The notes under the pieces were generated by a model that was not told where the DNA came from, made no database searches, and saw nothing but the letters and a program-made list of their open reading frames with translations. Source: a virus. Taken from it: a stretch of 47,707 nucleotides of DNA. A program made the position numbers and the translations under genes. The first letter of the stretch is position 1. Each line of letters starts with the position of its first letter. Location of the stretch: the IMG/VR virus record IMGVR_UViG_3300027848_000035, positions 1 through 47,707 of that record, one strand, 5' to 3'. Shown piece after piece: positions 6,300 through 26,036 of the stretch.

Positions 6300-6953
6300 T
6301 TAAAAGTCGAATTTATATCTCTTGGCTTGATCAACCACTAGCTTGAGACTGGATAAGCTACAGGCTTTGCCAGGGCCTGCTAAAGTTCCGGACTTTCCCA
6401 TGTAAAGTGACTGCCCGCTGAGAATAATTCCCATCAACTTTCCATCGTGTAAGACAGCACCTCCACTATCCCCGTGAATAAATGGGCCATCGATAAATGT
6501 TCCCGTTCTCTCACCCGTTCCTACGCAAGTCTTAACGGTCCAATGCCTGATCTTATCTTGGAGAGTTGGTCCCCAACCTAAGCACTCCACCTCGATTCCC
6601 CCCGTAGGAACATCCTCGTACACGCTTAAAATCTTTATGTTATCCGTCCTCTTTATCATCAATACCGCAAGGTCACTGCTCTCTTTAACTATCACTAATA
6701 AGGCATTATGTGTTATGCCTTTATGGTCGATGACTTGCAACTTGGCTTGTTCATCGACCACATGAGCAGCGGTTACTAAGAATAAGTGGTCTTCTGTTGA
6801 GTGTACCGCTACTGCGGACCCTTTGCTGGCACTTATCAATGACCCATCATGTGAGGTAATGTAAGCTTTTACTCTTACCATTGAGTCCTCATGCCTGGTA
6901 TGTTCGACGTAGTTAAAGTCAAACATCATCATTAACATTAGAAACTTGATCAT
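6300..6953 (-). CDS. Trypsin-like serine protease, exported or membrane-anchored
   Basis: This 217-residue protein has the full chymotrypsin-fold catalytic triad: His64 in VTAAHVV, Asp94 in SSDLAVL, and Ser163 in HGDSGGAV. The segment from about residue 46 to 200 is a complete protease domain. The N-terminus is short and Met/Leu/Phe-rich (MIKFLMLMMMFDFNYV) and may be a weak signal or membrane anchor, though the charge pattern is atypical. No PDZ domain is present, unlike DegP. An AAGGAAG ribosome binding site precedes the ATG. Its place between PhoH and a helicase is odd for a protease. Possible roles include cleaving a host defence or envelope protein, or processing phage proteins; the sequence does not decide. 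Confidence 0.85.
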   Translation of the reverse strand: MIKFLMLMMMFDFNYVEHTRHEDSMVRVKAYITSHDGSLISASKGSAVAVHSTEDHLFLVTAAHVVDEQAKLQVIDHKGITHNALLVIVKESSDLAVLMIKRTDNIKILSVYEDVPTGGIEVECLGWGPTLQDKIRHWTVKTCVGTGERTGTFIDGPFIHGDSGGAVLHDGKLMGIILSGQSLYMGKSGTLAGPGKACSLSSLKLVVDQAKRYKFDF

Positions 6954-7656: not shown

Positions 7657-9510
7657 TTACTTAGCGTCCCCCCAGCTTGATGCAATAACTGGGTCTGCTC
7701 GTAGGGGAACTTTTAAGGTGATACAATTTTCCATGCATTCTCTTACGTCTTCCTTTGCCTCATCTAAGATGTCTAGGTCCGCCTCGATTACAATTTCATC
7801 GTGAATTGAATTGATAATCATGGCTTTATCTATCCACCATCCTTTCTTCTTCCACCTATTTCTTAGCTTTATTTGAGCCAACTGAATAATAATAGCTCCC
7901 GCCGCCTGTCCTGGGAAATTATTTAACTGGTTGAGGTTTAGTTTTTCGGACCTCTCTTTGCGGGCATCGTCAGTAATGTTTCTCTGCCTACCTAACAGGG
8001 ACATAACCGGCTGTTTCGCCCTGTACGATCTTGTCACTGACTTCAAAAACCTATCCACCCCAGAGTATTTGCGAAGAAACCCGCGTACAATATCTTCCCA
8101 TACATCTTGGGATATTTTAGGGTATTGAGTGTGTAATCTATACGCCTTTGCGTTGTAGATAATCGCCAAATTAGCGACCTTACCCGCTTTTCTATCCCCG
8201 TTCATTTGTGGGATGGAATCTGTCGTAGCTTGGTGAAGGTCTTGACCGTGCCAAAATCCGCCACTCTCATTTTCCTTTGCCCCACAGGATGGGCAGTTTC
8301 TTAGGATTCTATTAGCTGCTCCTTTTGCCCCACATGGGCATGAATAATTAAGGTAGGCATCCATAAATCCTTTATCTGCGGTTATGTGTCCTGCTAGCCT
8401 CAACTCCAATTGAGAATAATCAGATACGATTAGTTTCTTGCCTTTGCCAGCTACGAATGCCTTGCGAATATTTATACCCGCCAATTCTGGCTCCGAATAC
8501 TCAGTAGGAACATTCTGCAAATTATGATCGCTGCTTCTGGTTCGCCCTGTGTTAGAATGCAGATAGAAGTTCCCATGAACTCTACCATCCTTACTCACTG
8601 ATTCCTCCGTTGTTAAAGGCTCAATGTAAGTGGATATCAACTTAGCTACCTTTCGGTAACTAATGATCAGCTTGCAAACAGCATACCGCTTTGATAGTAT
8701 GATTAGGTTAGCCTCATCTAATGCTACCTTTCCGGTATTTCTGTTTTCGACTAATCCTTTCGGGGAATATCCAAGTTCATAAAATAGCCGTTTCTTTAGC
8801 TGCCCTGGGCTGGATATGTTTAACTTGCCGATCTTCTTAAAGATGCTCTTTTCAATTCTAGTTTTGGCCGCCAATAGTTTTATGTAAAGAGGGCGAGCCT
8901 GGTCAACATCCCATAGCATACCGTAGTACGATATGTCAGTAAATACTAACAGTGACTTCATCAAGACCGTGAATAATTCCCAGCATCCTTTTTTCTTTAC
9001 CTTCGGGCGGTAATCTAAGTAGATACGAAGCTCCCAGTATACGTCATCCTTGCCGTAATCATAAAAAGCCTGAGTGTCTAGCCCTGCGGCAGACGCCTCT
9101 TTGTAGCTAGACATCTTTTCCCCGTAAATCTCAGGGACGACATCCTTTAGCCCGTATGACTGCATGTTTTCATCATACAGATTTAGAAGTACGATGGTGT
9201 CTCGGATTAGGGGATCTTGAAATACATACCCGGCAGACTTTAAGCAATTCAAGTCAAATGATGCATTATGGGCGATTACCTCGATATCACCTACAAAGCA
9301 ATTAGTGAGTATCTTCTGGATGTCTTCTCTGGAGGTATAATACTCAGAGATAATCTTGCCATCTTTGAATGACGAAAATCCACAACCGTGAATATCAAAG
9401 TTGGGCAAACTCCACTTAGTAGTAGATTCATGCTCCACGTCAAAGCACAGTAACTTTGAATCAGTGGCAACTTTAATCATTTCGGCTACTGAGATTTTAG
9501 GGGCTATCAT
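7657..9510 (-). CDS. polA: Family A DNA polymerase with 3'-5' exonuclease and zinc-ribbon insert
   Basis: This 617-residue replicative polymerase has a DnaQ-like 3'-5' exonuclease (Exo I D24-x-E26 in LLCFDVEHE, Exo II AHNASFDL, Exo III YGKDDV) and no 5' nuclease domain. The polymerase domain shows NLQNVP, motif A VSDYSQLELR, motif B from R440 to N453, and motif C IHDEIVIE. Motif B has Leu448 where E. coli Pol I has Phe762 and Asn453 where the usual Tyr-Gly follows. Between motifs A and B an insertion carries C391-x-C393 and C406-x-x-C409, a zinc-ribbon pattern. It is flanked by a two-hairpin intergenic region upstream and phoH downstream. It is the likely phage replicase. Confidence 0.93.
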   Translation of the reverse strand: MIAPKISVAEMIKVATDSKLLCFDVEHESTTKWSLPNFDIHGCGFSSFKDGKIISEYYTSREDIQKILTNCFVGDIEVIAHNASFDLNCLKSAGYVFQDPLIRDTIVLLNLYDENMQSYGLKDVVPEIYGEKMSSYKEASAAGLDTQAFYDYGKDDVYWELRIYLDYRPKVKKKGCWELFTVLMKSLLVFTDISYYGMLWDVDQARPLYIKLLAAKTRIEKSIFKKIGKLNISSPGQLKKRLFYELGYSPKGLVENRNTGKVALDEANLIILSKRYAVCKLIISYRKVAKLISTYIEPLTTEESVSKDGRVHGNFYLHSNTGRTRSSDHNLQNVPTEYSEPELAGINIRKAFVAGKGKKLIVSDYSQLELRLAGHITADKGFMDAYLNYSCPCGAKGAANRILRNCPSCGAKENESGGFWHGQDLHQATTDSIPQMNGDRKAGKVANLAIIYNAKAYRLHTQYPKISQDVWEDIVRGFLRKYSGVDRFLKSVTRSYRAKQPVMSLLGRQRNITDDARKERSEKLNLNQLNNFPGQAAGAIIIQLAQIKLRNRWKKKGWWIDKAMIINSIHDEIVIEADLDILDEAKEDVRECMENCITLKVPLRADPVIASSWGDAK

Positions 9511-9619: not shown

Positions 9620-10039
9620 CTAATCCAATACTCGCCTAAGCTCTTCCGCGAAGGATCGCTGACCTGGGAAAGCATACCATCCTGGTGGCATATCAACGCA
9701 GTCCCCATGCTCTGGGTGAAGCAATGATCGTGAAAGAGTGAACTTCATAACTGGTCCATCCAAGGCGTTTGCATCCTTTAGACTATACTCAGTTACTCCT
9801 TCATCACTGTCTAGGGTATGCCTGCTGCCGACCGTACTCCCTGGGGCCACTTGGAGATTAACTTTGTCACGACGGGTCAGCAAGCCTTCTTCGAAGTTGT
9901 CAGGTAGTCGGATAATTCTAACATCCCCTTGTCTCCACTCATCCAACGGCTCCATATTTGCAAGAGATTGGGGACTGTCATTTACGATTGACTCTACTTG
10001 AGCCTTAACTTTGTTAAACGATTCAATTGCTGTGATCAT
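9620..10039 (-). CDS. Partner protein of the DUF6745-like repeat gene, 139 aa
   Basis: This small soluble protein matches a pattern I associate with genes lying next to DUF6745-type proteins: W-x-Q-G-D-V (WRQGDVRIIRL), an APGSTVGSRHTLD segment, a GPVMKFT strand, HPEHGD, then PPGWY and a closing helix SFAEELRRVLD. The conserved His residues in GSRH and HPEH could bind metal. The gene starts in a TAATG overlap with the repeat gene, so the two are translated together. No enzyme activity is known to me for either protein. The family recognition is from memory, not a search. Confidence 0.65.
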   Translation of the reverse strand: MITAIESFNKVKAQVESIVNDSPQSLANMEPLDEWRQGDVRIIRLPDNFEEGLLTRRDKVNLQVAPGSTVGSRHTLDSDEGVTEYSLKDANALDGPVMKFTLSRSLLHPEHGDCVDMPPGWYAFPGQRSFAEELRRVLD

Positions 10040-12510
10040 TATGTTCTTCCTATGACTCTGGTTTTTGGAATTATTCTATCGATACTTGATCCGCTGTGTA
10101 GCCAATCCTGAGCTTGATCGCAAGTGGCTACGTCCTTTGCGAATTCTAATGAAAATACTTTCGCGGTAGAAGGGCAAGAGCAAATCAGTACCCGCATTTC
10201 CCCGCACTCCATTAACGCCTCATTAGTCTGCTCGATATCATTAGTCTGCTCGTCAAGAACAGTAGCTTGCATCTGTTCTAGATAAGACTGCCAACCAAAT
10301 CGATCAATTCGAACCCTCTTTACCTCCTCGTTTTTCTCTTGGTTAATCTGGTCTAAAGTTTGCGTCTCCGGACGCATAACGATTTGCTCATCGACTGGTA
10401 CGCCATTGATTGTCCATAACTTAAACTCATTATTGTATTCTACCGAAGGACCGTCATCACAGTGGAGAAATGTACCTTCCCAATTTACTTGAGTAGGCTT
10501 CTTCAATATGTATACGGCCTTATCACACCACATCCAAACAGGACACCTCTTATTGAATTCAGAAAATAAGGAAAGTTTATCCTCATCTAACTTTACGCCA
10601 AGGGCCACTGCCCCCTCGTAGTAACCACACCATGCATTCCACCACCCTCCGCAGTAGATGTTTAGTTTTTTAGCAGGAACCCCGCTAACCTGGTTGTTAA
10701 TGATGGAGTAAATCTTGTCGGCTATCTGGTCATCAAGCTGGTCGTTAATCTGTTCGCTTAGTTTAGCGTAAGACTTTTGTTCAAGCTGGGTGTAAATCTT
10801 GCGGCTAAGCTGGTCGGTAATCTGGTGGTAAAACGGCTCATCAAGCTGGTCATCAAGCTGGTCCCCAATCTGGGCATTAAGCTGGCTGCTAACCTGGTTG
10901 TGAAGCTGGTCCCCAATCTGGTCATCAAGCTGGTTGTAAATCTGTTCGCTAATCTGGTCGCTAAGCGGGCTGTCAAGCTGGTTGCGAAGCTGGTTGAGAA
11001 TCTGGTTGTCAAGCTGGCTGCCAATCTGGTTGCTAAGCGGGCTGCCAAGCTGGTTGTCAGGCTGGTTGTCAAGCTGGTTGCGAATCTTGTCGCTAAGCTG
11101 GTCGTGAATCTGGTTGTTAATCTGGTTGTAAATCTGGAGGTAAATATGGAGGTGAATCTTGGTGCCAAGCTGCGATTTAAGCGGGCCATCAAGCTGGTAG
11201 TGAAGATGGTCACTGATCTGTTCACCAAGCTGGTCGTCAGTCTGGCTGTCAAGCAGATCATCAATCTGGTCCTCAAGCTGGTTGTAAATCTGGTTGCTAA
11301 GCTGGCTGCCAATCTGGCTGCCAATCTGGTTGCGAAGCTGGTTGTGAATCCGATCCTCAAGCTGGCTGCCAAGCTGGTTGTGAAGCTGACTGCCAAGCTG
11401 GTTGTGAAGCTGGTCGTCAATCTGGTTGTAAATCTGGAGGTTAAGCTGGTTGAGAATCTTGTCGCTAAGCTGGTCGTCAAGCTGGTCGTGAATATTGTCT
11501 TTAATCCGATCCTCAAGATGGTCGCTAATCTGGATGCCAATCTGGTTGTGAAGCTGGGTGCGAATCTGGTTGCGAATCTGGCTGCTAATCTGGATGTTAA
11601 GCTGGTCGTTAATCTGGTAGTCAGTCTGGTCACCAATCTCTCGGCCAAGCCGTTTGCTAATCTGATCATCAAGCTTGTCATCAAGCTGGCTGCCAATCTG
11701 GTCGCTAAGCTGGTTGTAAATCTGGTCGTCAATCTGGGTGTCAAGCTGGTCGTGAATCTTCGACATAAGCTGGTTGCGAATCTGGTAGCTAAGCTGGTTG
11801 TAAATCTGGTTGCGAAGCTGGTTGTGAATCCGATCCTCAAGCTGGGTATCAAGCTGGTCTCCAATCTGGCTGCCAATCTGGTTGTAAATCTGGAGGTTAA
11901 GCTGGTTGTGAATCTGGCCCTCAAGCTGGTCCTCAAGCTGGTCGCTAAGCTGGGGGTGAATCTGGCTGCCAATCTGGTTGTAAATCTGGCTGCGAATCTG
12001 GCTGTCAAGCTGTTTGTGAATCTGGCTGCTAATCTGGTTGTCAATCGGGTTATACATCTGATCTTTAGTCTGGCCTTCAAGATGGTCCCCAATCTGGCCC
12101 CCAAGCCGTTCACCAAGCTGGTCCTCAATCTGGTCGTGAATCTGGCCGCTAAGCTGGCTTCCAATCTGGTTGGTAATCTGGTTGTGAATCTGGCTGCCAA
12201 TCTGGTCGTTAATCTGGTCGCTAATCTGGCCGTGAATCTGGGCGTGAAGCTGGCGTTTGAGACGGGACTTAATCAGGGCCCTTAGATTTGTATCATTTAA
12301 CGCGGGCATCAATCGAGACAACGCCTGTGCTTCTTGAGGGGAACCCACAAGGAATACCGGCACTTTAGGCAAGTCTAATTTTTCCAGCAATTTGTGTACG
12401 GTTTCAGTCACCTCTTCATGGGTGTACTGAGCAGTCTGTTCCTCGTTAAGCCATCGTTCTTTAATCTTATCGACTTCTGCCCACTGTTCTTCTGATACTT
12501 TATCAATCAT
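10039..12510 (-). CDS. Giant tetrapeptide-repeat protein, DUF6745-like
   Basis: This 823-residue protein has three parts. Residues 1-88 form a charged helical head with LPKVPVFLVGSPQEAQAL. Residues about 89-605 are a tandem array of some 130 tetrapeptides of form [N/D/S]-Q-[I/L]-x. Residues 606-823 form a Trp/Cys-rich globular tail (NIYCGGWWNAWCGYYEGA, then HCDDGPSVEY, WTINGVPV, and VKRVRIDRFGWQSYL). The head and tail resemble DUF6745 proteins, which usually have a much shorter [D]-Q-V-x array. A good AAGGAT ribosome binding site precedes the ATG. It sits between a structured RNA and its small partner gene. Function is unknown; a solenoid or elongated scaffold is a structural guess. Confidence 0.85.
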   Translation of the reverse strand: MIDKVSEEQWAEVDKIKERWLNEEQTAQYTHEEVTETVHKLLEKLDLPKVPVFLVGSPQEAQALSRLMPALNDTNLRALIKSRLKRQLHAQIHGQISDQINDQIGSQIHNQITNQIGSQLSGQIHDQIEDQLGERLGGQIGDHLEGQTKDQMYNPIDNQISSQIHKQLDSQIRSQIYNQIGSQIHPQLSDQLEDQLEGQIHNQLNLQIYNQIGSQIGDQLDTQLEDRIHNQLRNQIYNQLSYQIRNQLMSKIHDQLDTQIDDQIYNQLSDQIGSQLDDKLDDQISKRLGREIGDQTDYQINDQLNIQISSQIRNQIRTQLHNQIGIQISDHLEDRIKDNIHDQLDDQLSDKILNQLNLQIYNQIDDQLHNQLGSQLHNQLGSQLEDRIHNQLRNQIGSQIGSQLSNQIYNQLEDQIDDLLDSQTDDQLGEQISDHLHYQLDGPLKSQLGTKIHLHIYLQIYNQINNQIHDQLSDKIRNQLDNQPDNQLGSPLSNQIGSQLDNQILNQLRNQLDSPLSDQISEQIYNQLDDQIGDQLHNQVSSQLNAQIGDQLDDQLDEPFYHQITDQLSRKIYTQLEQKSYAKLSEQINDQLDDQIADKIYSIINNQVSGVPAKKLNIYCGGWWNAWCGYYEGAVALGVKLDEDKLSLFSEFNKRCPVWMWCDKAVYILKKPTQVNWEGTFLHCDDGPSVEYNNEFKLWTINGVPVDEQIVMRPETQTLDQINQEKNEEVKRVRIDRFGWQSYLEQMQATVLDEQTNDIEQTNEALMECGEMRVLICSCPSTAKVFSLEFAKDVATCDQAQDWLHSGSSIDRIIPKTRVIGRT
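10690..12246 (-). repeat. About 130 tandem 12-bp units coding for the Q-[I/L]-x-[N/D/S] array
   Basis: The unit on the coding strand is CAG, ATT or CTT, a variable codon, then AAC, GAC or AGC. Units differ mostly at codon first and second positions, while CAG and the T or C wobble bases stay nearly constant. The 12-base period keeps phase through more than 1.5 kb. Because the period is a multiple of three and the unit lacks stops in other frames, long false frames appear on both strands here. Confidence 0.9.
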
Positions 12511-12777: not shown

Positions 12778-13494
12778 TTAGAAGGGTAAGTCCTCGTCTA
12801 CGTCGTATGCTTCATTTGATTCTGATCCTTGATCTTGTACATCTTCGCCGAATTCTAGGTCAGGGTCAAGGCGTAATGCCAATTCCTTTATCATGTCCGG
12901 GTCAGATACCAGAGTCGCAGATAGCTCATCTAAAGTAAACGGCGTCTTGTCCTCTTCAGTAAGTTCGTAATCCGCCAAGGCCACATGAGCCTTGAACCGG
13001 AACTTGCTTCCTGTAATAGGAGGAGATGGTTGAGCCTCTGGGCCGCGAGATACTTCAAACATTGCGTATTGCAATTCGCCGTCTGCTTGTTCTAGTGCCT
13101 CACTTACAATTAGCTCATAGCTTTGTTTGGTGCAGAGCATCAATTTCTTAGTAATTGGTACTACTGTGCCATCCTTTTTAGTATAGGGACGAAGGTCCAA
13201 TACCGTAAAGAAACTAGCAGGGGATCTCCACCCCTTCTTAGCGGCACCCGCTGCGTCACATAGGATACAGTGCCCCTCATCCGAGGTACATACCGCCATG
13301 TGACTGTCTCGCTTACCGAAGAACAGCTTGTGAATAAGTTGAGCAGGGACTTCATTCAAATTATCCAAGAAGATAACAGGAGCCTTAGACTCGCCATAAT
13401 CTAACCGATATTGAAGTGTACTAACTCCGCCCGACTTTGCTGCTCTACGCTTTGCTTCCTCTTCGTACAGAGAGGCACCACGTTTAAACGTCAT
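12778..13494 (-). CDS. Single-stranded DNA-binding protein, phage type
   Basis: This 238-residue protein ends in an acidic tail closing with DVDEDLPF, the hallmark tip of bacterial and phage SSB proteins that recruits partners. The N-terminal half has a Cys cluster (C69, C76, C79 with nearby His) followed by aromatic strands (SFFTVLDLRPYTKKDG), a layout found in gp32-like and other zinc-containing phage SSBs rather than in the E. coli type. It would coat single-stranded DNA at the fork and contact primase and helicase. It overlaps the primase gene by four bases (ATGA) and is followed by the structured RNA. Confidence 0.75.
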   Translation of the reverse strand: MTFKRGASLYEEEAKRRAAKSGGVSTLQYRLDYGESKAPVIFLDNLNEVPAQLIHKLFFGKRDSHMAVCTSDEGHCILCDAAGAAKKGWRSPASFFTVLDLRPYTKKDGTVVPITKKLMLCTKQSYELIVSEALEQADGELQYAMFEVSRGPEAQPSPPITGSKFRFKAHVALADYELTEEDKTPFTLDELSATLVSDPDMIKELALRLDPDLEFGEDVQDQGSESNEAYDVDEDLPF

Positions 13495-14393
13495 AGTATG
13501 CTTTCTAAAAATTCTGAATAGCTGAAGTCCCCAGGGTCTTTAACATTGCCATTTGGGGACGTGAATGGCCAATGTATACGGTATAGTAGATTGGATGGAT
13601 ACATCCTCTCTAATTCACTGAATCCTTTTTCGCCTGCCTGATCTTGATCGAACATGCAGTATATCATTTTACCAGATTTCGCCAGAATGTCTACCTGCCT
13701 ATACGATATATTTGCAGTTGTAGTGCATCCTACGTCAAATCTGTTATCTTTTGCCCACGGGTATATCTTAAGCATGTCAGTAAATCCCTCTACTAGTAGT
13801 AGATTGTCATACTGCCATTTTTCTTCCCCGCCTATTATGGTAGACGTATTTATGAAATACTTGTAATGCTCTTTGCGTAGTATTCCTCTGCCAATCGCCC
13901 CAAGTAACCCTTTCTTATCCCTGACTGGAAATATTACCCTTTGAGTCCTTCTGTCGAATCTGGTGTCAAATTCCTCGTAGCAAGTTATTCCCCTGGACAG
14001 TAAGTATTTCTCGCCTGCGGTTCCTACGCAAGAAGGAAATGTCTGAAGTAGGTCGTCGTCAAAATACTCCCTTCTAAATCTCTGCTTTACGGGTCTTCGG
14101 AGTTTCAACTTAAGTCTATGGGCGTCTGCTGACCACCCCAATAGTAATGCCGCCGAGACTGAATCCTTTCGGTACTTGTTTACGGTGGTTAAGAAGGAGT
14201 AATAGTCCCCCTTGCATCCGCAAGCATAGCACTGAAACTTATCTATCTCTGGCCAAATCACTAAGGACTTGTTGATATCTGATCCCTTCTCGTGGGTCCA
14301 CTCGGCAAAAGGGCACTGGCAAATATATCCTTTGGAATACTCTTTATGAGATATTCCTAATTTCGTAAGGTCGGCACTTATGCTAAGGCTCAT
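13491..14393 (-). CDS. DnaG-type DNA primase
   Basis: This 300-residue primase has an N-terminal zinc-binding module with C25, C27, H34, C55, C58 and C60 (YICQCPF and FQCYACGCKGD), resembling the CHC2 finger. A central region (YLLSRGI, VIFPVRDKKGLLGAIGR) matches the DnaG catalytic core, and the TOPRIM motifs appear as LLLVEGFTDML and MIYCMFDQDQAG. It lacks a helicase domain, which is supplied by the separate DnaB-like gene upstream. It is coupled to the SSB-like gene by an ATGA overlap, so primase, helicase, loader and SSB form one replisome cassette. Confidence 0.9.
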   Translation of the reverse strand: MSLSISADLTKLGISHKEYSKGYICQCPFAEWTHEKGSDINKSLVIWPEIDKFQCYACGCKGDYYSFLTTVNKYRKDSVSAALLLGWSADAHRLKLKLRRPVKQRFRREYFDDDLLQTFPSCVGTAGEKYLLSRGITCYEEFDTRFDRRTQRVIFPVRDKKGLLGAIGRGILRKEHYKYFINTSTIIGGEEKWQYDNLLLVEGFTDMLKIYPWAKDNRFDVGCTTTANISYRQVDILAKSGKMIYCMFDQDQAGEKGFSELERMYPSNLLYRIHWPFTSPNGNVKDPGDFSYSEFLESIL

Positions 14394-14435: not shown

Positions 14436-15683
14436 TTAATACTCGATTCCCTCTATCTCTTTAGGCTCCGAGTTTTCTATTTGACTAAAATCGCCGGTTG
14501 TCAGATCCCAATTAACTTGAAAAGACTTCTCAAGGTCTGAGTCAAAGTACTGCTTGATCTTACAAATGTGCATTGTCGCGGTTCTGGCAAGTCTATCATC
14601 CTCTGTCGCATCTAGGGCGATTAAGTTAGTAGCCGCAATCATAAAGTCGCTTCCGTATCGTGTTTGGTATCCTCTATTGTGATTGCCCAAACTCTTGCCA
14701 GTTCCCGGCTTCTCTTGAGTAGTCGTTACCCAAGGCAACCCTGTTCTATTAGATGCCCTTTGAAGATCCTCTACAATATTCTTGATTTTCTCCCAACCAT
14801 CCGCAGCCTTTGATGCCCCCTCAAGTCGATAACAGGCGTCCACAATCACTAAGTCTGGCTTATAGGTGTCCGCAAGCATTTGAATATCAGATACTGTTCT
14901 AACCTCATTGCTTGATGCCATTAGGATATCCCCGCCATTCTGGTCAGGGTTTAACAGGCAATCTCGGTACTTTATTTCTGCCATTAGGCTTAGCTTACGG
15001 CGGGTTAGGTCTTTGTGGCTTACTTTATGAATCAGGAAGTCCAATCGACCTAACATAGCCTCGGTGGGATCCTCCATCGTGACAAATAGTACCTTTTTCC
15101 CCTCTTGATAAGTATGCCTTGCTATCGCTGTACAGATGTACGACTTTCCTATATTGGCTTGGCCCGTAAACACATTCAAGGACGGCCCTACCCATCCACC
15201 TAGTAACTCGTTTAAGTTTGTCCAAGGGGTTGATAGCCCTTTGATGCCCCTTCGCTTTGACAGTCTGTATTCAAAGTACCGTTCTTTTCCACCAGATACA
15301 AAAGATGATAACTTTCGGTCATTAGTTACTACCTCAGATACCGATAGGAACTTGCTTATCGCCGCCGATGTATCCACATGGATTAAGTCAATGGCTGATG
15401 ATGCTATCTCTGTGATCTTCTGCTGACTTAGATATTCCTTGTACTTGTCGATAGCAAATTTGGGATTGTCTATCTTAGGAAGTTCTACGTCTAGTTCGTC
15501 TAGGATAGTATCCGCGTTTGGCCAAGTCTGGTAGGTGTCTACATAAGCCTTGATGTAATCACAAACCGTCTTAGTGGGCGAATCTAAATCTAGGAATGAT
15601 AAATTATTATCTAATAATGGCTTGAAGCTTTGACTGTCTATGCACAGTCGGATGAATCTTCGAGAAGCCTGGTGTAAAATCAT
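14436..15683 (-). CDS. DnaB-like replicative helicase
   Basis: This 415-residue RecA-fold ATPase resembles DnaB and gp4-type hexameric helicases. An N-terminal helical domain (to about residue 150) is followed by GIKGLSTPWTNLNELLGG, Walker A FTGQANIGKSY, a VTMEDP strand, LVIVDACY as Walker B, and a late motif (LPWVTTTQEKPG) that resembles the T-T-Q-x-x-R stretch. A C-terminal acidic tail follows. It would unwind the template 5'-3' ahead of the polymerase. Its ATG overlaps the stop of the loader gene (ATGA), and primase lies directly downstream. Confidence 0.88.
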   Translation of the reverse strand: MILHQASRRFIRLCIDSQSFKPLLDNNLSFLDLDSPTKTVCDYIKAYVDTYQTWPNADTILDELDVELPKIDNPKFAIDKYKEYLSQQKITEIASSAIDLIHVDTSAAISKFLSVSEVVTNDRKLSSFVSGGKERYFEYRLSKRRGIKGLSTPWTNLNELLGGWVGPSLNVFTGQANIGKSYICTAIARHTYQEGKKVLFVTMEDPTEAMLGRLDFLIHKVSHKDLTRRKLSLMAEIKYRDCLLNPDQNGGDILMASSNEVRTVSDIQMLADTYKPDLVIVDACYRLEGASKAADGWEKIKNIVEDLQRASNRTGLPWVTTTQEKPGTGKSLGNHNRGYQTRYGSDFMIAATNLIALDATEDDRLARTATMHICKIKQYFDSDLEKSFQVNWDLTTGDFSQIENSEPKEIEGIEY

Positions 15684-16270: not shown

Positions 16271-16831
16271 TTATTCTAACTCCCTATGTGCAAAACTCTC
16301 TTGAGACTTCCTAGTCCTAGAAGGAATACCGTCCTCTCGCCACCTGATCAACTCATTAAGATACAAGGGATTAAGTAGTTGCATAATCTCTAGTTTCTTT
16401 GGAAGTTCCTCCTGGGAGTCGTTTACCCATTGGTATAAATCTGCCAACCCTTGCGGGTCATACTCTTCTGCGACTGGTTTTGCAAACTTAACGTACTTTG
16501 GCGAGTACGCCCTAGTCCCGTTTATGTAAAGGTCAGACGGCAGGGGGAATAATCCCACTAAGGTATCAAGCACTCTTTCATAATTCCGCCGAAGTCTGGG
16601 TCTTTTGAAAGACGATTTCATAGAATGGGTGAACTTAGGCGAGTCTTTGATAATAGTTACCTTGAACTTCCCCTTTAATTCCGTGAATGTCAAAAGTTCC
16701 ATATCCCTATATTCTACTAGGGAATAATCTGCCTTGCTGTCAACCACTGGGTCATCCATCAAGCATAGTTCCATAAAAGGAAGCATGTGCTTTCCATGTT
16801 CCTTGTATAGTTTCTTTAATTTATCTATCAT
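16271..16831 (-). CDS. Hypothetical protein at the head of the replication block
   Basis: This 186-residue soluble protein is not recognised. It begins with a charged helix (MIDKLKKLYKEHG), has a basic central patch (SFKRPRLRRNYERVLDTLVG) that could contact nucleic acid, and ends with a helical domain and a charged tail (RTRKSQESFAHRELE). The ATG at 16831 overlaps the TGA of the large tail gene (ATGA), so I prefer it to an earlier ATG. It precedes the helicase loader directly, so it may be an origin or replisome accessory, but no motif proves this. Confidence 0.65.
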   Translation of the reverse strand: MIDKLKKLYKEHGKHMLPFMELCLMDDPVVDSKADYSLVEYRDMELLTFTELKGKFKVTIIKDSPKFTHSMKSSFKRPRLRRNYERVLDTLVGLFPLPSDLYINGTRAYSPKYVKFAKPVAEEYDPQGLADLYQWVNDSQEELPKKLEIMQLLNPLYLNELIRWREDGIPSRTRKSQESFAHRELE

Positions 16832-19050
16832 ATCGTGAATTTCTTGGTTAACGTCCAATTGGATACGATGTATCCTACTGCCTCAGCCGGGGCGTTTAAG
16901 TAAAATTGTAATGTAAACGACGACGATGCAGGCACAAAGGTTTGAGTAAATAGCAAGGGGTTGCCCGCCATTTCCAAGATAGTCTGAATCCCTACCTCAC
17001 TGTTAGAGTACGTTACTGGGAATAAGTTGCCTATCCCCGTCCCTGTTGGGTGGTAAGCATTGAGGGGGTAAGTCTTTTGAACATAGCAAGAGAATGTGTA
17101 CTCATCTCCAACCGTAGCGTCCGCGTGAAAATAACTGCAATTCGGACTAGATGCCCCACCCCCTGCACTGGCTATGAATAACGAGTAATTTTGGAATTGT
17201 ACTATTTGATTCGTCGTGGCTGAACCAACGGTAAACGGGCTTGAGTCCGCCTCGAATCCTCCATTTGCCGCCGCTATTAGGTTGCTTGTCTGTAACTCCC
17301 TTTCTCCCGTCAGGCACGACACATCCCATACAGTTAAGCTCATCTCAACTGTACCAGGATCTGCCGAATACTGAGTCTGGATTCCCGCAATGATAGCCTT
17401 GACTATACGCTGAGGCATTTCATTAGTGCCCGGCGTGTAGAACTGAATAACATCATTGATCTTCAACCACGACATATAAGGACAAGTTATCGTCATAGTA
17501 TTGGCGTCTAGGTATAACTCTTGATATCTCCGCTTTAGAATCCTTGCCAATTTTTCTGGGGAGTCGGAATACACGTTAGAGATAGTTTCTGACGTGAACC
17601 CACAGTACCCTGTTTGATTGATATCTATTACTGCAACTGATAAAGCATTCTGAGATTGATTCTGGCCTGGATTTGAATTGAATGGTCTTACGTTATTGTT
17701 GCCCCTATTTCTTTGCCCTTTACCACCCGCTGGTCCTCCTACTATGGTATTAGGGGTAGTTATGTAAGGCTTACGGGAATTTACTACGTTAGCCTTTGCT
17801 CTGGCTTCTCTGTTATTTTGGTCTAAGCTTTCCCTGCCGCTACCGGGCTTTATGCCCATTCCACCATATTTGTAGATATCCTGTACTGACCTCTCTACGT
17901 TTCCTCTTCGGATTACCCCTTTTCTCACGGACCTCATCATTGCCGCTTCGGATGCTTCGTCTATCTTGGCGAATTTTGCATTGATCTGGTCAACTAGCTG
18001 GTCATTTATTTCTCTATCAATGGGGGGCTTATCCTCGACCTCCATTGATCTCCCCCGGACTATGTACATTACTTCGTCGTTTCTGAAATAATCCCCGCTG
18101 CTTTTCTTGACCTCTGTTTGGAATACGCCGTCAGCGATGGACGCTTTTGAGGTCTCTTCTATTTCGGTAGGGCCCGTCGCGGATACTAATTCGGCATTCT
18201 TGATGGTCTCTTCATTAGCCGCTAGGTTAGTTACGTTAATCTTAGCCTTTGGGGCCCCAATACCCGACAATACATGGGTCGTATTAGCTCCTGGGGAGGA
18301 AGAATACCCACCAAGGTTAGTAGGAGATACCTTGGACGAGGTAAATACTAAAGTCCCGGCATTCATAATAGACTGCTGAGCCCCAGTAGCGGAGATTAGA
18401 TAGGAATTTACCGGGGCACTGGTAGACTTGGACGCAGAGATAGCCCATTCTTGGGGAATTGTGAAGTCTACCGCACTGTCTTGATCCTTCCAAGGGGAGA
18501 ATTCTAACTTTCCTCCTACCTGTACATACATATTACCCCCTGCCGCTTGGGCAAGATTACGCATCTCGGCTAGAGAATCCTGACCTTGGACTAAACCAGA
18601 GAATGTAATAGCGGAGGATAAGCTATTGGTAATTAGGCTGCCCTCTACCCCGAGGTAGATAGTCAATATGTCAGTAATCGCCGTGGCAATTGGGGCAGAG
18701 AATGTCTCTGTGTATACAGGGGTTGACCTTAGACGGGTAAAGAAGGATGACACCCCCATTGATATCGTGTCTGATTCTAAGGAGGCTGTCTCGCTGTAGG
18801 ATCCAATGATGCCATTTATCCAGAATGGGTCGTTGGCTGCATATAGGGCCGATATGGCTGAGGAGCCAGTTACGTCCGATCCTACTCGGCCTTGAACGCC
18901 ATACTTTAGCCTAATAGGTACACAATTATCAAAACAGCCTGCATACCAACCCCCGTCTTGGTTAGTCAGGCTGAAATTTCCAGAGAAATTATCAGAGATT
19001 GAGTAACTTGCGGAAGCAGCATACAGGCTTTCATTCAGCGTATAAGGCAT
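16828..19050 (-). CDS. Large tail hub/tip protein with C-terminal binding module
   Basis: This 740-residue virion protein probably belongs to the tail tip or baseplate hub. The N-terminal half is strand-rich and Ser/Thr/Gly-rich and includes a segment (RNLAQAAGGNMYVQVGGKLEFSP) typical of hub proteins. The middle (about residues 330-470) is charged and Asn/Gly-rich and looks like a linker. A conserved stretch (LKINDVIQFY) follows. The last 160 residues (from NLIAAANGGFEADSSPF to the end) look like a jelly-roll carbohydrate-binding module, with regularly spaced aromatic strands. It could recognise host surface sugars. It ends the structural region and overlaps the next gene by four bases. Confidence 0.65.
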   Translation of the reverse strand: MPYTLNESLYAASASYSISDNFSGNFSLTNQDGGWYAGCFDNCVPIRLKYGVQGRVGSDVTGSSAISALYAANDPFWINGIIGSYSETASLESDTISMGVSSFFTRLRSTPVYTETFSAPIATAITDILTIYLGVEGSLITNSLSSAITFSGLVQGQDSLAEMRNLAQAAGGNMYVQVGGKLEFSPWKDQDSAVDFTIPQEWAISASKSTSAPVNSYLISATGAQQSIMNAGTLVFTSSKVSPTNLGGYSSSPGANTTHVLSGIGAPKAKINVTNLAANEETIKNAELVSATGPTEIEETSKASIADGVFQTEVKKSSGDYFRNDEVMYIVRGRSMEVEDKPPIDREINDQLVDQINAKFAKIDEASEAAMMRSVRKGVIRRGNVERSVQDIYKYGGMGIKPGSGRESLDQNNREARAKANVVNSRKPYITTPNTIVGGPAGGKGQRNRGNNNVRPFNSNPGQNQSQNALSVAVIDINQTGYCGFTSETISNVYSDSPEKLARILKRRYQELYLDANTMTITCPYMSWLKINDVIQFYTPGTNEMPQRIVKAIIAGIQTQYSADPGTVEMSLTVWDVSCLTGERELQTSNLIAAANGGFEADSSPFTVGSATTNQIVQFQNYSLFIASAGGGASSPNCSYFHADATVGDEYTFSCYVQKTYPLNAYHPTGTGIGNLFPVTYSNSEVGIQTILEMAGNPLLFTQTFVPASSSFTLQFYLNAPAEAVGYIVSNWTLTKKFTI

Positions 19051-19053
19051 AGT

Positions 19054-20685
19054 TTAATACTTCAATTGGGAGGACTCTTTGGAATAAATCTCTACTAAGT
19101 TATTTAGTTCTAGTTCTAGGTCTCGCCTCCTAGAATAACCACTTAGTATATTCAAAAATACGTCGATGTCTGGGTCTTTTGGATTCTGCCAATTTACTAA
19201 GGTATCCTTTGTTCGTATGATCCAATTGGCCTTTTGAATGTAATTAGTCATTGCTCCAAGCTGAACGGGGGTTAACTCTTGAATAGGGTACAAATTGCAA
19301 TCTTCTAATAGGATTACCCCAGGGGCATAATTCTCTAGGTCCGCAAAGCTTATCTCTTTTAGGAGTTCTCCGATTGTGTTTGGTCCCCTAAGACTCTTGA
19401 ACTTAGCACCGTTTTGCTGCATTACTTGATTTGTTACATCAGTGGTAGGAAACACATTAAGGATAGGTTCGCCGATTCTAGGCAGGAACTCCCCCAATTT
19501 CTGCATCCTAGATAGCATCTCAGGGGCACCTAAGTATCCAAACCTATAGTTAGTCCAGTATTCTTGGCCAGTATCCTCTTGAAGGTATTCTAACCAAGTT
19601 GCCCCCACCGACTCAATACTGAATCTACTTGAATCAGGTAACTCTACTCGCTCTCTTGGTAGATCCTCTAAGTACTTTGCCCACTTCTCAATTGACTTCT
19701 CTAAGTTGGGCAGTTCAAAATAAGTAGAGTCGCGGTATAGGAGGCTAACCCCCTCGGCGGAATGCTCAAGGTTAGGATGAATCTCCTTAAATACGCCTAA
19801 CTTGGTCACAAATTGGGGGAGTCCAATCATTGCCGCTTCCAAGAACGACACGCCAAATCCTTCTCCTGCACTAAGGTTTAATGATGCGTCAGATAACGAG
19901 TACAATTCTATCAATTCCTCGCGGGTTAACGCGGATGTGATCAGGTTGAATCTGTCCCCTAAATTGAATAGTTTTGAGCCATTTTCTAAATCAAACGCAT
20001 CCTTCACCCCTCGGTTACCGCATCTCCCAATATACCTTAGATTCTTATTGCCATTTAGTAGTGCCGCGAATGCTTGAAGATTGTACTCCCACATCTTACG
20101 CCAATAGTTTTCATTGACGTTAACTAAGACGTAATCAGATGGGAGAATATCTACTTTAAGGCGGTCAGACCATTTAGCTCTAAGATCGGTAATATCAGAC
20201 TGGTTGTATGGGGTAAACTTTATATCATCCCTTACCGCGTGATACGCCACTCGATTAGTATTAAATACATGGGACCATACGTCCTTTGAGAAGTTATTCA
20301 TGTGGATTAGAGAGTTAGGCCGCATGATCGAATAACTACTTTTGATGTAGCTAGGCACCATACAGCCTTCAAATGCCCACCAGTAATACACAGGGCAGTT
20401 TGCCTGAGGTTCCCTTAGCCCAAACAACTCTCTAGTTACTGGGGAGGGTGCCAGTACAATTACCGCATCAGGTTGATTATTCCTAATCACCGAAATAACT
20501 TGATCACATTCTCGGATAGACTTCACGAGATCAATATCATACTTGCCCCTTCCAAATGATCCTAAGGAATAAGCAATAAACCGCACCGTATGCCCTTTGG
20601 AGATAAAGTAATCCCCTAGTAATTGGGCTTGGTGCCCGAATCCCGTAGGAAGCATTGGGCTGTCTGATACTATTGTGATCTTCAT
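19054..20685 (-). CDS. GT-B glycosyltransferase (family 4-like)
   Basis: This 543-residue enzyme has the two-domain GT-B layout. The N-terminus begins MKITIVSDSPMLPTGFGHQ with the usual Gly-rich loop, and the C-terminal donor domain contains ELYSLSDASLNLSAGEGFGVSFLEAAMIG, the E-x(7)-E motif of GT4-type retaining transferases. About 150 extra residues follow the donor domain and are unassigned. It lies between a tail-hub gene and a small zinc protein. It might glycosylate a virion protein or modify host surface glycans. The ATG at 20685 is preferred because family members begin at MKI, though an upstream GTG is open. Confidence 0.8.
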   Translation of the reverse strand: MKITIVSDSPMLPTGFGHQAQLLGDYFISKGHTVRFIAYSLGSFGRGKYDIDLVKSIRECDQVISVIRNNQPDAVIVLAPSPVTRELFGLREPQANCPVYYWWAFEGCMVPSYIKSSYSIMRPNSLIHMNNFSKDVWSHVFNTNRVAYHAVRDDIKFTPYNQSDITDLRAKWSDRLKVDILPSDYVLVNVNENYWRKMWEYNLQAFAALLNGNKNLRYIGRCGNRGVKDAFDLENGSKLFNLGDRFNLITSALTREELIELYSLSDASLNLSAGEGFGVSFLEAAMIGLPQFVTKLGVFKEIHPNLEHSAEGVSLLYRDSTYFELPNLEKSIEKWAKYLEDLPRERVELPDSSRFSIESVGATWLEYLQEDTGQEYWTNYRFGYLGAPEMLSRMQKLGEFLPRIGEPILNVFPTTDVTNQVMQQNGAKFKSLRGPNTIGELLKEISFADLENYAPGVILLEDCNLYPIQELTPVQLGAMTNYIQKANWIIRTKDTLVNWQNPKDPDIDVFLNILSGYSRRRDLELELNNLVEIYSKESSQLKY

Positions 20686-20693
20686 CTGAGGGG

Positions 20694-20957
20694 TTACCAC
20701 TTGTTTTCAGGGCAGGATTCTGTTGAGTACGAAGTCTTTAAGGGGAGATAACATCCACATGAACCGCAGACGTCTCCCTCTCGTAACTCGCAGGAATTGC
20801 AAATGCTTAGCCTCTTAACCAAAGTGGGTACGTCTGTGGCCTTCCCCCTAAATAACATCTTGTATTGTGCCTTGAGGCATAGATAAGGGCCGAGGATAAT
20901 CTTACGAAGGTTTGCAATCATTACAGGTTCCACATATTCTTGCTGGGTTTGGTTCAT
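20694..20957 (-). CDS. Small zinc-ribbon-like protein
   Basis: This 87-residue protein ends with a Cys cluster: C-x-x-C (SICNSC), then C-x-x-C-x-C (VCGSCGC), and finally a TESCP-x-x-x-W end. This compact ending is widespread in short phage and bacterial proteins of unknown function, in which the Cys residues probably bind zinc. The N-terminal half is basic and helical. The start is uncertain: ATG at 20957 and GTG at 20987 both lack a clear ribosome binding site. It is followed closely by the glycosyltransferase gene. Confidence 0.65.
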   Translation of the reverse strand: MNQTQQEYVEPVMIANLRKIILGPYLCLKAQYKMLFRGKATDVPTLVKRLSICNSCELREGDVCGSCGCYLPLKTSYSTESCPENKW

Positions 20958-23158: not shown

Positions 23159-23685
23159 AATGGTGGAGGCTCTTCTTCTGAGGGACAATGGGTATCACTA
23201 TAACTTAACTCAGGTCCACTTATCGGACCTCTATCTGACCATATAAGTACGATAATGTCAGTAGCCACTTCGCAGTTAACAGAGTTAACCGTAAATGTAG
23301 CTGAGAATGTAACCGTACTTGAGGCTGGAATTGACGTGAACCATTCTACATTTCCGTCAAATCCTACTATCGTATTGGTTCCTGCCGGGCTGGATGAGAC
23401 ATAAGTAAAAATACTTCCATCATAATCCAGGTTTGTGCCGTCCGGGGCAGTTCCTACTGGGTCCACGGTATTATTAGTTACGTCAAACGTAATTGTTATG
23501 TCTTCCCCCAAACATGCTACAGTAGGAGATATAACAATGTTGCTAATTATTACGTCCGCATCCTCTACGGGATCATGGAAACTTCCCGTTTGTACAATGC
23601 AACAAGGGCAACAACAGCAACTCTCATCCATTGCTATGAGTCCCCCGACCAGCAGGATCTTTCCCTCTACTATAATTATGGGCAT
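23155..23685 (-). CDS. Cys-rich protein with a DUF11-like domain
   Basis: This 176-residue protein opens with a short hydrophobic segment (MPIIIVEGKILLVGGLIAM), then a compact Cys cluster, DESCCCCPCC. From about residue 50 it has an immunoglobulin-like repeat of the DUF11 type (VISNIVISPTVACLGEDITITFDVTN split over several strands) and ends in a Pro/Glu-rich tail. The Cys cluster could bind metal or carry disulfides or lipid. It overlaps the collagen-like gene by ten bases and precedes the glycosyltransferase, so it is probably a virion or surface protein. The start inside the longer frame is chosen because the longer frame runs deep into the upstream gene. Confidence 0.6.
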   Translation of the reverse strand: MPIIIVEGKILLVGGLIAMDESCCCCPCCIVQTGSFHDPVEDADVIISNIVISPTVACLGEDITITFDVTNNTVDPVGTAPDGTNLDYDGSIFTYVSSSPAGTNTIVGFDGNVEWFTSIPASSTVTFSATFTVNSVNCEVATDIIVLIWSDRGPISGPELSYSDTHCPSEEEPPPL

Positions 23686-26036
23686 ACTGTTCCTGTCAAC
23701 GTAATATTGGCACCTGCCACGCTGGAGCATACAGATATGTCCGCCGTAGTGAAGACTAGATTTCCTCCGACAATTGAAACTCCCGTGAGTACGTTTACTG
23801 TGGTTGAACAATCAGCATCCAGCCCGGCAGGTCCGGCGGGTCCAGTAGGTCCGGCAGGTCCGGCAGGTCCGGCAGGTCCGGCAGGTCCAGCAGGTCCAGC
23901 AGGTCCGGTAGATCCGACAAGGGCAGGGTCAACATACAAATTAGGGCAGTCATCAAAGTCAGTATCCCCTACTAGCAATCCGGTGCCCGCTAAGGAATCA
24001 AAATCAATTGCTAGTTTTCCGTCCGTGACTGTCAATCCGCATCCAAGAGGTAGCAGGCTCCTAGACACTAACTTTGGGTCGCAATCCTCAGACACGTCAT
24101 CTATTTCAACCCTACCTATCATCATTGCGTTAGTTGCCGTGCCTCCTAGACTACATGAATCTAACGGCGAGACCGTTCCGTCTAAGCAGGTTGTAATGAC
24201 TACTCGCTCTTCGTCGGTTACTCTCGTGGCGTCTATTAGGTCAAACAGATTTACCTGCAACTGAAGTGGTGGGTTGCTTAGAAATCCCACTGGTCTCCTT
24301 AATCCGCACCCTACAGCATCTCGGCAGGTCTCATAAATAACCCCGGCACTAAAGTCCGCGATGACCGCAGCGTCTATGTCAGTACACGGGTCTACAGGAA
24401 GTTCCACCACATACGCATCAATGAGAATGCCTAATCTAATCTCCCCTTGGGCCGCGGGGGTGTCCACCTCTACGGTTAACTGTTTGGATAATGTAGCCGC
24501 CGTCCAAACTGAGGAATTTACTTCTATGCGAAACTTAACAATATTGCCAGACACACACGAAACTACCCCTGCCGGTAAGCTAGGGGTACTGAGAGTCAAT
24601 GCCATGTTTGACTCAGGGTAGAAACGGTATCTAACTTCCCAATAATCCCCTGCGGGGAATACAAAGGCAGTCCTGTTTGAGAACTCTAATTCGGAGGTAA
24701 ATGTATAAGGGCCATTAAACGGCAATTCTTTTCTGTATGTATTGGTTATCCCTATATCATATTTTGCCGGGCTGCGGAGATTTGCTACCGTCTGGGGAGT
24801 AGCACTATCTCCAAATATATGACGCACACCCCCCCAAAAAAATATCGCATCAGATAGCGTACCAGATCTTCCAGTCAACGTAAGGACATCAGGATCGCCT
24901 TCATTACATACTGCTAGGCTATTGCACCCTTCTGGGTCAGACACTACTATTAGGCCCCTGCCCGCAAGCTGCTCGTGGTTTATTTCAATTGCCCCATCTG
25001 TTACTTTTAGCCCGCATCTGATTGGGATATTTATCTCGGTAAATAATGCGCCATACTCGCAGCAATCCCCTACATATTCTGATGCGTACTCACTATCAAA
25101 CTTTACTATGCCCGAAGTCGTTGCCAACGTCTCATAAGAATTCAGAGCGCCCGTAAACCCAAGGACCGCATTAGAATCAGGACCAGATCCTAATGACTCA
25201 GGCAGGGTCGCATTAAATTCCCCAGATATTGCTAGGTGGTGTATGTCCTTTGCATCGACATACACGATTTTCTCCGCCTTTACCTCAAAAGATGTCGAGG
25301 TAAGTTTATTTGTCAGAGTTACCGCAACCCGTACAGTCGCTACGAACACTTCATCCCCACACCACGCTACAGTAGCCATGTTAGTTAGAGGTTGGTTCTC
25401 GGTGAGAGTCGGAGGAGGTATAGTGTCCTCTACTGTGACTGTCCATAAAGAAGACGTTGCTTCACATAACTCCCTACCAGAGTCGTCCTTTGACTCATAC
25501 GTTAGTTCAATTGAATATGTGGAAGTTTCGCATAACCTAGAGTGGTCTGGCCCTGAAATATCAAGCTTTACATCAAAATTCTTAGCCTCTCCTAAGTCCC
25601 CCTCTGATTGATCCATGTTAGGGTCATTGCCCAGACAATTGAAGGTTACTCTAGATACTATGCTTTTTGTTGATACGCCGCCAGTGGTTCCGTTTAATGC
25701 AATGATCTGCCAAAATATGGTTTCCCCTAGATTGATATCCGGACCTCGTACCAGTACATAGGAATTACCCGTGACCTTTCGTTGGGCTACGTTTGGCCCA
25801 GACATGTTCTGGTCTTTTGACCATTGAACAATGTAATGGGTGGCTCCGACAACTTCCAACCACTGTAGGATTATGCCGGTCCCTGACGCCACGTTGCTTT
25901 TTAGGCAGACAGTCGCCCCATCTCTCGGCAATAGTATCAAAGGAGTGCTAAGTACCCGCTGGTTAGACCAGTTTACATAATCGTCTGTTAAGTCTGGACA
26001 TACTTTTAGGTTCAGTGAATAGTCGTGATTACTCAT
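23676..26036 (-). CDS. Tail-tip/fibre protein with FN3-like and collagen-like segments
   Basis: This 786-residue structural protein begins with an FN3-like domain (about residues 35-130, GIILQWLEVVGATHYIVQW). Several strand-rich regions follow. A module beginning C-G-L-x-V-T-D-G occurs twice (IRCGLKVTDGAIEINHEQLA and LGCGLTVTDGKLAIDFDSLA), each followed by a Gly-Leu step and a Cys-x-x-L strand, indicating internal duplication. Residues about 711-740 are a collagen-like Gly-Pro-Ala tract of about ten triplets ending in GLDADC. A short strand-rich domain closes the protein. Collagen-like trimers are common in phage fibres. It lies downstream of the tape measure, the usual position for a tail-tip or fibre gene. 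Confidence 0.7.
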   Translation of the reverse strand: MSNHDYSLNLKVCPDLTDDYVNWSNQRVLSTPLILLPRDGATVCLKSNVASGTGIILQWLEVVGATHYIVQWSKDQNMSGPNVAQRKVTGNSYVLVRGPDINLGETIFWQIIALNGTTGGVSTKSIVSRVTFNCLGNDPNMDQSEGDLGEAKNFDVKLDISGPDHSRLCETSTYSIELTYESKDDSGRELCEATSSLWTVTVEDTIPPPTLTENQPLTNMATVAWCGDEVFVATVRVAVTLTNKLTSTSFEVKAEKIVYVDAKDIHHLAISGEFNATLPESLGSGPDSNAVLGFTGALNSYETLATTSGIVKFDSEYASEYVGDCCEYGALFTEINIPIRCGLKVTDGAIEINHEQLAGRGLIVVSDPEGCNSLAVCNEGDPDVLTLTGRSGTLSDAIFFWGGVRHIFGDSATPQTVANLRSPAKYDIGITNTYRKELPFNGPYTFTSELEFSNRTAFVFPAGDYWEVRYRFYPESNMALTLSTPSLPAGVVSCVSGNIVKFRIEVNSSVWTAATLSKQLTVEVDTPAAQGEIRLGILIDAYVVELPVDPCTDIDAAVIADFSAGVIYETCRDAVGCGLRRPVGFLSNPPLQLQVNLFDLIDATRVTDEERVVITTCLDGTVSPLDSCSLGGTATNAMMIGRVEIDDVSEDCDPKLVSRSLLPLGCGLTVTDGKLAIDFDSLAGTGLLVGDTDFDDCPNLYVDPALVGSTGPAGPAGPAGPAGPAGPAGPTGPAGPAGLDADCSTTVNVLTGVSIVGGNLVFTTADISVCSSVAGANITLTGTVCP
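23823..23906 (-). repeat. 9-bp tandem repeats coding for the collagen-like tract
   Basis: Units of GGACCTGCC or close variants encode Gly-Pro-Ala. They are nearly identical, so copy number could change by slippage. The same DNA also encodes Gly-Pro-Ala in a frame on the opposite strand, which is a coincidence of the codon composition. Confidence 0.85.

Follow-up and report, generated by a model that had tools for sequence, protein, structure and literature searches.

Gene Neighborhood and Domain Organization of the DUF6745 Locus

The analyzed stretch of DNA (hereafter the window; 47,707 nucleotides, IMG/VR record IMGVR_UViG_3300027848_000035) originates from a siphovirus-like genome that comprises tape measure, portal and large terminase genes. 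On its minus strand, an open reading frame at positions 10039–12510 (ATG at 12510, stop codon at 10039–10041) encodes a protein of 823 residues (P0001) that is assigned to the DUF6745 family on the basis of its translation and a PF20530 match; an earlier note on this DNA had delimited the same, real reading frame without naming the strand. The gene is flanked by replication genes, as that note had stated: DNA primase (13491–14393) and a DnaB-like helicase (14436–15683; both on the minus strand and recognized by database profile matches) are located upstream, and a family A DNA polymerase (7657–9510, minus strand; PF00476, E=1.6e-66) is located downstream. A partner gene of 139 amino acids (P0002; 9620–10039, minus strand) follows directly downstream and overlaps the stop codon of the DUF6745 gene.

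The protein is composed of a head domain (residues 1–81; 12268–12510), a tetrapeptide array (residues 82–601; 10708–12267) and a tail domain (residues 602–823; 10042–10707), all encoded on the minus strand. The PF20530 match covers residues 645–755 of the tail with 48.1 bits (gathering cut-off 27), and a tail HMM that was built from 40 homologs with the window left out recovered the window protein at E=3e-32. The tail motifs of the family (LHxxxGPA-like; N-x-E stretch) are present, and His-683 and Asn-727 are invariant in an alignment of 41 sequences. The head lies outside the Pfam match; the HMM built without the window gave modest but consistent values of about 1e-4 for the whole protein and 8e-4 for the domain. 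Thus, the DUF6745-like character that had been proposed for both ends is firmly established for the tail and only modestly supported for the head, which lacks Pfam coverage. Two further family features, a conserved head ahead of the array and an adjacent small partner gene, are likewise found in the window. When the window's tail, DNA polymerase and partner were each used in single-protein scans of viral contigs, no relatives were recovered. Pfam matches inside the array (YpjP, DUF668, Trigger_C and others) and the PADLOC matches were discarded as low-complexity hits; no stretch passes alone.

Composition and Codon Usage of the Window Array

When the array region is divided into 134 consecutive 4-mers, I, L, V, M or F occurs in the same phase in 127 of them, and a scoring scan delimited 130 unbroken units of the type [D/N/S]-Q-[I/L]-x, in agreement with the approximately 130 units estimated previously. 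The residues of the unit (designated x1 to x4) are predominantly Asp (40), Asn (33) and Ser (21) at x1, Gln (103) at x2, Ile (64) and Leu (58) at x3, and Gly (22), Asp (22), Ser (19), His (18) and Tyr (14) at x4; approximately 104 Gln and 42 Asn are present among the 520 residues. At the DNA level, the unit comprises 12 nucleotides with the core CAG-ATT or CAG-CTT, and a pattern of three consecutive units matched 38 times in the window versus not once in 100 dinucleotide shuffles. The codon usage of the array is far from that of the genome: CAG encodes 103 of 104 Gln, CTT 56 of 65 Leu and AGC 35 of 41 Ser, versus genome fractions of 0.43, 0.17 and 0.12, respectively. This uniformity indicates that the array has grown from a small DNA seed and was kept homogenized thereafter. 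The long reading frames on the opposite strand (10777–12285) and in a second minus-strand frame (10758–12200) are by-products of the stop-free 12-nt repeat.

Partner Gene and Two-gene Module

The partner gene, which the earlier note had overlooked together with the variation pattern described below, belongs to a family for which no Pfam or NCBIfam name was found. Its assignment is based on alignments, a partner-family HMM without the window (E=1.8e-11 for the window partner), the adjacency in other genomes and AlphaFold2 (AF2) modeling. The His/Glu-rich proteins share QGD, GxxxH-type and HxEH motifs (typically GExTGHxH ... HxEH), and in an alignment of 59 sequences His-74 and His-111 are invariant and His-108 is nearly so; metal binding by the partner is a guess from these conserved residues. 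According to the AF2 model (mean pLDDT 78.7), an N-terminal helix is followed by an all-beta domain, for which Foldseek returned no significant fold match in the PDB.

The partner adjoins 118 of the 151 DUF6745 reading frames, in every case on the same strand (a count that includes duplicates and truncated contigs). Among additional genomes and plasmids, mainly from the mycobacterial family and Rhodobacteraceae, it was present at 38 of 39 mostly array-free loci (five are identical copies, one repeats an earlier locus); DUF6745 itself was detected in 106 of 401 mycobacterial-family genomes versus 3 of 395 Rhodobacteraceae genomes. DUF6745 and the partner hence constitute a conserved two-gene module of phages and bacteria, and as the partner is retained at loci that mostly lack the array, the module is wider and probably older than the latter.

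Other gene associations were of limited range. In a phage subgroup (loci L127, L128, L129, L130 and L135), DUF6745 is located beside a DUF2201 (VWA/metallopeptidase-like) gene with no partner found, and a MoxR-like AAA ATPase is also encoded nearby at L128–L130 and L135; being confined to this one subgroup, the MoxR/DUF2201 link was rejected as a general feature. On three plasmids and in one genome (L005, L006, L008, L029), DUF6745 and the partner are adjacent to STM4011–4015 radical-SAM genes; this link, first seen on the three plasmids, was dismissed because no more than 1 of the 55 genome loci showed it.

Distribution and Length of Arrays in the DUF6745 Family

The scans of viral and bacterial contigs comprised approximately 150 DUF6745 reading frames. 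Most phage members carry an array of x-[Q/S/N]-[V/L/I]-x units at the same place: after reduction to distinct tails, arrays were present at 52 of 65 viral versus 17 of 50 genome loci (Fisher p ~1e-6). The array is an insertion between the conserved head and tail that occurs mainly in phage members. Most chromosomal copies of the mycobacterial family lack it, and it is thus dispensable to the core function. In a pattern-only DNA scan without any DUF6745 information, about half of 45 loci led to DUF6745 genes; the remainder were truncated or unrelated.

In the sample, arrays comprise 22 units in the median and 35 at the 90th percentile, with a maximum of 69. With 130 units, the window array is the longest among the approximately 70 seen and about twice as long as the next longest; it shares with the family the tail match, the head and tail that are conserved in phage and bacterial members alike, and the array site. 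Besides its length, it is set apart by unusually diverged units (98 distinct among 130) and by a broader range of residues at x4 (G, D, S, H, Y, E, N, R). The shorter D-Q-V-x arrays that the note had ascribed to other members do exist (many homolog arrays are of the DQV type), whereas the view of the array as very unusual is valid for its length by this census of units and not for the array as such, a common feature of the family. Equally long arrays, which would have refuted that view if common among the homologs, were absent from the sample. However, lengths outside the window are probably under-counted, because short-read assemblies are expected to break in near-identical 12-nt units: 21 of 78 array reading frames run off the end of the locus, and some arrays are split over two loci, e.g. 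L187 and L176 of the same contig, with at least 45 NQI-type units together. The window array may have been assembled because its units are diverged.

Two singular gene arrangements were encountered. A Roseovarius MAG carries five identical DUF6745 genes on one chromosome (L067–L071), most of them about 46–49 kb apart, a spacing that suggests tandem related prophages; a Mycolicibacterium plasmid (L193, 1237–3558) encodes an array-free protein that resembles two DUF6745 units in a single chain.

Structure Prediction

AF2 modeling of the full chain with 41 sequences resulted in a confident head (pLDDT 73–90, residues 1–80) and tail (70–94, from about residue 631 to about 800). The array was predicted as a long helix with a pLDDT of 66–78 in the first 60 residues and mostly 40–66 beyond. 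The designation of the array as solenoid-like thus finds no support in the sole structure prediction available, nor is it excluded: helix, beta-solenoid and disorder all remain possible, with the low-confidence model leaning towards an alpha-helix. No solved relative was identified by sequence or fold: Foldseek found nothing significant for the full chain, and the PDB sequence matches to the array were unrelated, mostly repetitive proteins of low complexity.

Variation and Turnover Inside the Arrays

The array DNA is homogenized including its silent positions, and the variation is focused on two neighboring residues, x4 and the x1 of the following unit. Each variant codon was scored a single time per array, provided that two or more units carried it. 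On this basis, the codons 1 and 4 of 70 arrays yielded 203 non-synonymous versus 3 synonymous variants (44.7 synonymous expected, p ~1e-17), compared with 36 versus 20 at the core codons (13.3 synonymous expected); variants that belong to the same array do not represent fully independent events. At the nucleotide level, positions 2 and 10 of the 12-nt unit rank as the two most variable in 39 of 61 arrays.

Arrays with different core-codon backbones repeatedly show the same letters, namely G, W and R at x4 and D together with A or G at x1: GGG and TGG together with one of AGG/CGG are present in 43 arrays with 15 different backbones. For arginine, exactly one of AGG and CGG is used in 54 arrays and both in only one, which is consistent with a letter that arises rarely and then spreads through its array, and which speaks against a mutator.

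In the window, x4 is coupled to the x1 of the next unit (mutual information z=5.5) and not to that of its own unit (z=1.0), and in other arrays R-D and G-A neighbors are enriched. Although the coupling could partly reflect linkage by DNA distance, it supports, together with the neighbor enrichment and the variation pattern, the division of the unit into a core and a variable di-residue formed by x4 and x1. Along the arrays, the letters follow one another in a nearly random order, with a weak two-unit correlation as the exception.

The arrays turn over faster than their flanks: two loci with approximately 91–95% nucleotide identity around the array (L012 and L017) nevertheless contain about 20 and 33 units, respectively, in differing order, and relatives with tails of about 84% identity can differ in their core codons.

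Possible Functions of the Array

The observed pairing of the module, the amplification and homogenization of the 12-nt unit and the focus of amino-acid variation on x4-x1 are tentatively explained by a repeat scaffold on which the variable x4-x1 residues form a diversifying binding surface (probability about 0.4); this reading is inferred, in the absence of any target, binding or structural evidence. The array would grow as 12-nt units are duplicated in tandem and recombined, and selection would keep its letters diverse; x4-x1 would then present an exposed surface of variable specificity on the regular scaffold, by which the module of head, tail and partner might bind a changing target, e.g. 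a factor of the host or of a rival phage. The window, with its unusually long and diverged array, probably carries an old version. Three points count against a binding surface: in the low-confidence AF2 helix a spiral hydrophobic stripe would leave no single clean exposed face, the letter order is nearly random, and array-free copies indicate that the core function does not depend on the array.

The main rival is a plain spacer or ruler of variable length between head and tail that changes by slippage; in that case nothing but hydrophobic spacing and solubility would count, and x4 and x1 would simply tolerate substitutions. Array lengths from 0 to 130 units, the existence of array-free members and the almost random order of letters are all consistent with such a spacer, and it accounts well for the length variation. 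Tolerance, however, predicts about 45 synonymous variants among the 206 at x1 and x4, of which only 3 were observed, and instead of drifting freely, the letters are drawn from a restricted set that reappears on independent backbones; as neither the scarcity of synonymous variants nor the recurring alphabets are explained, a mere spacer is considered possible but somewhat unlikely. Self-assembly, i.e. Q/N/S-rich repeats driving the formation of filaments or condensates with the variable residues tuning solubility, would agree with the high Gln and Asn content of the window array and with long, exactly periodic repeats; many arrays, however, contain little Q/N and are built on S-V or S-L, and the recurrence of the G/R/W letter sets is not accounted for, which makes this proposal improbable. 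A targeted mutator that rewrites two positions per unit, e.g. a diversity-generating retroelement, would match the two variable nucleotide positions of many arrays and was rejected as highly improbable based on the AGG/CGG pattern (mutation at that base would produce both codons, which almost never occur together in one array), with the remaining adenines of the unit invariant in many arrays and no reverse transcriptase (RVT_1) match in the window record, which may be a fragment.

A more specific version of the diversifying binding surface is conceivable by analogy with TAL effectors: the arrays might act in modular recognition, each unit contributing a di-residue from a small alphabet, and phages would change the binding by recombining units; without binding data, this extension remains speculative and rather unlikely. 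TAL effector repeats consist of homogenized DNA repeats with a unit of approximately 34 residues, in which adjacent residue positions hold almost all of the variation. The DUF6745 arrays resemble them in the homogenized repeats and the variation at adjacent positions, and differ in the unit of only 4 residues, the missing sequence relation and the lack of a known target or code. Pentapeptide-repeat proteins are built from a short regular unit, in which a polar and a small residue precede a single central hydrophobic one. The DUF6745 array is alike in this arrangement, but its period is four residues, AF2 did not predict a beta-solenoid and no pentapeptide family was among the Pfam matches.

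A full-text search of an open-access library for DUF6745 and typical array strings retrieved no paper describing the module or the array. The family, whose annotation does not go beyond a domain of unknown function, emerges as part of a widespread two-gene module; its phage arrays are rapidly rebuilt and show, at two positions, a strong selection signature for diverse amino acids. This signature points to an arms-race interface and offers a testable handle on an otherwise opaque phage gene.

Additional Genes of the Window

Elsewhere in the phage genome, a reading frame of 740 amino acids (16828–19050) has no match in either Pfam or PHROG. A trypsin-like serine protease (6300–6953; Trypsin_2, E=3e-9) and a glycosyltransferase (19054–20700; PF00534) are encoded as well. 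A 9-bp repeat that occurs ten times at 23824–23916, inside a 786-aa reading frame with a tail-fibre-like C-terminus (23676–26036), is possibly collagen-like.
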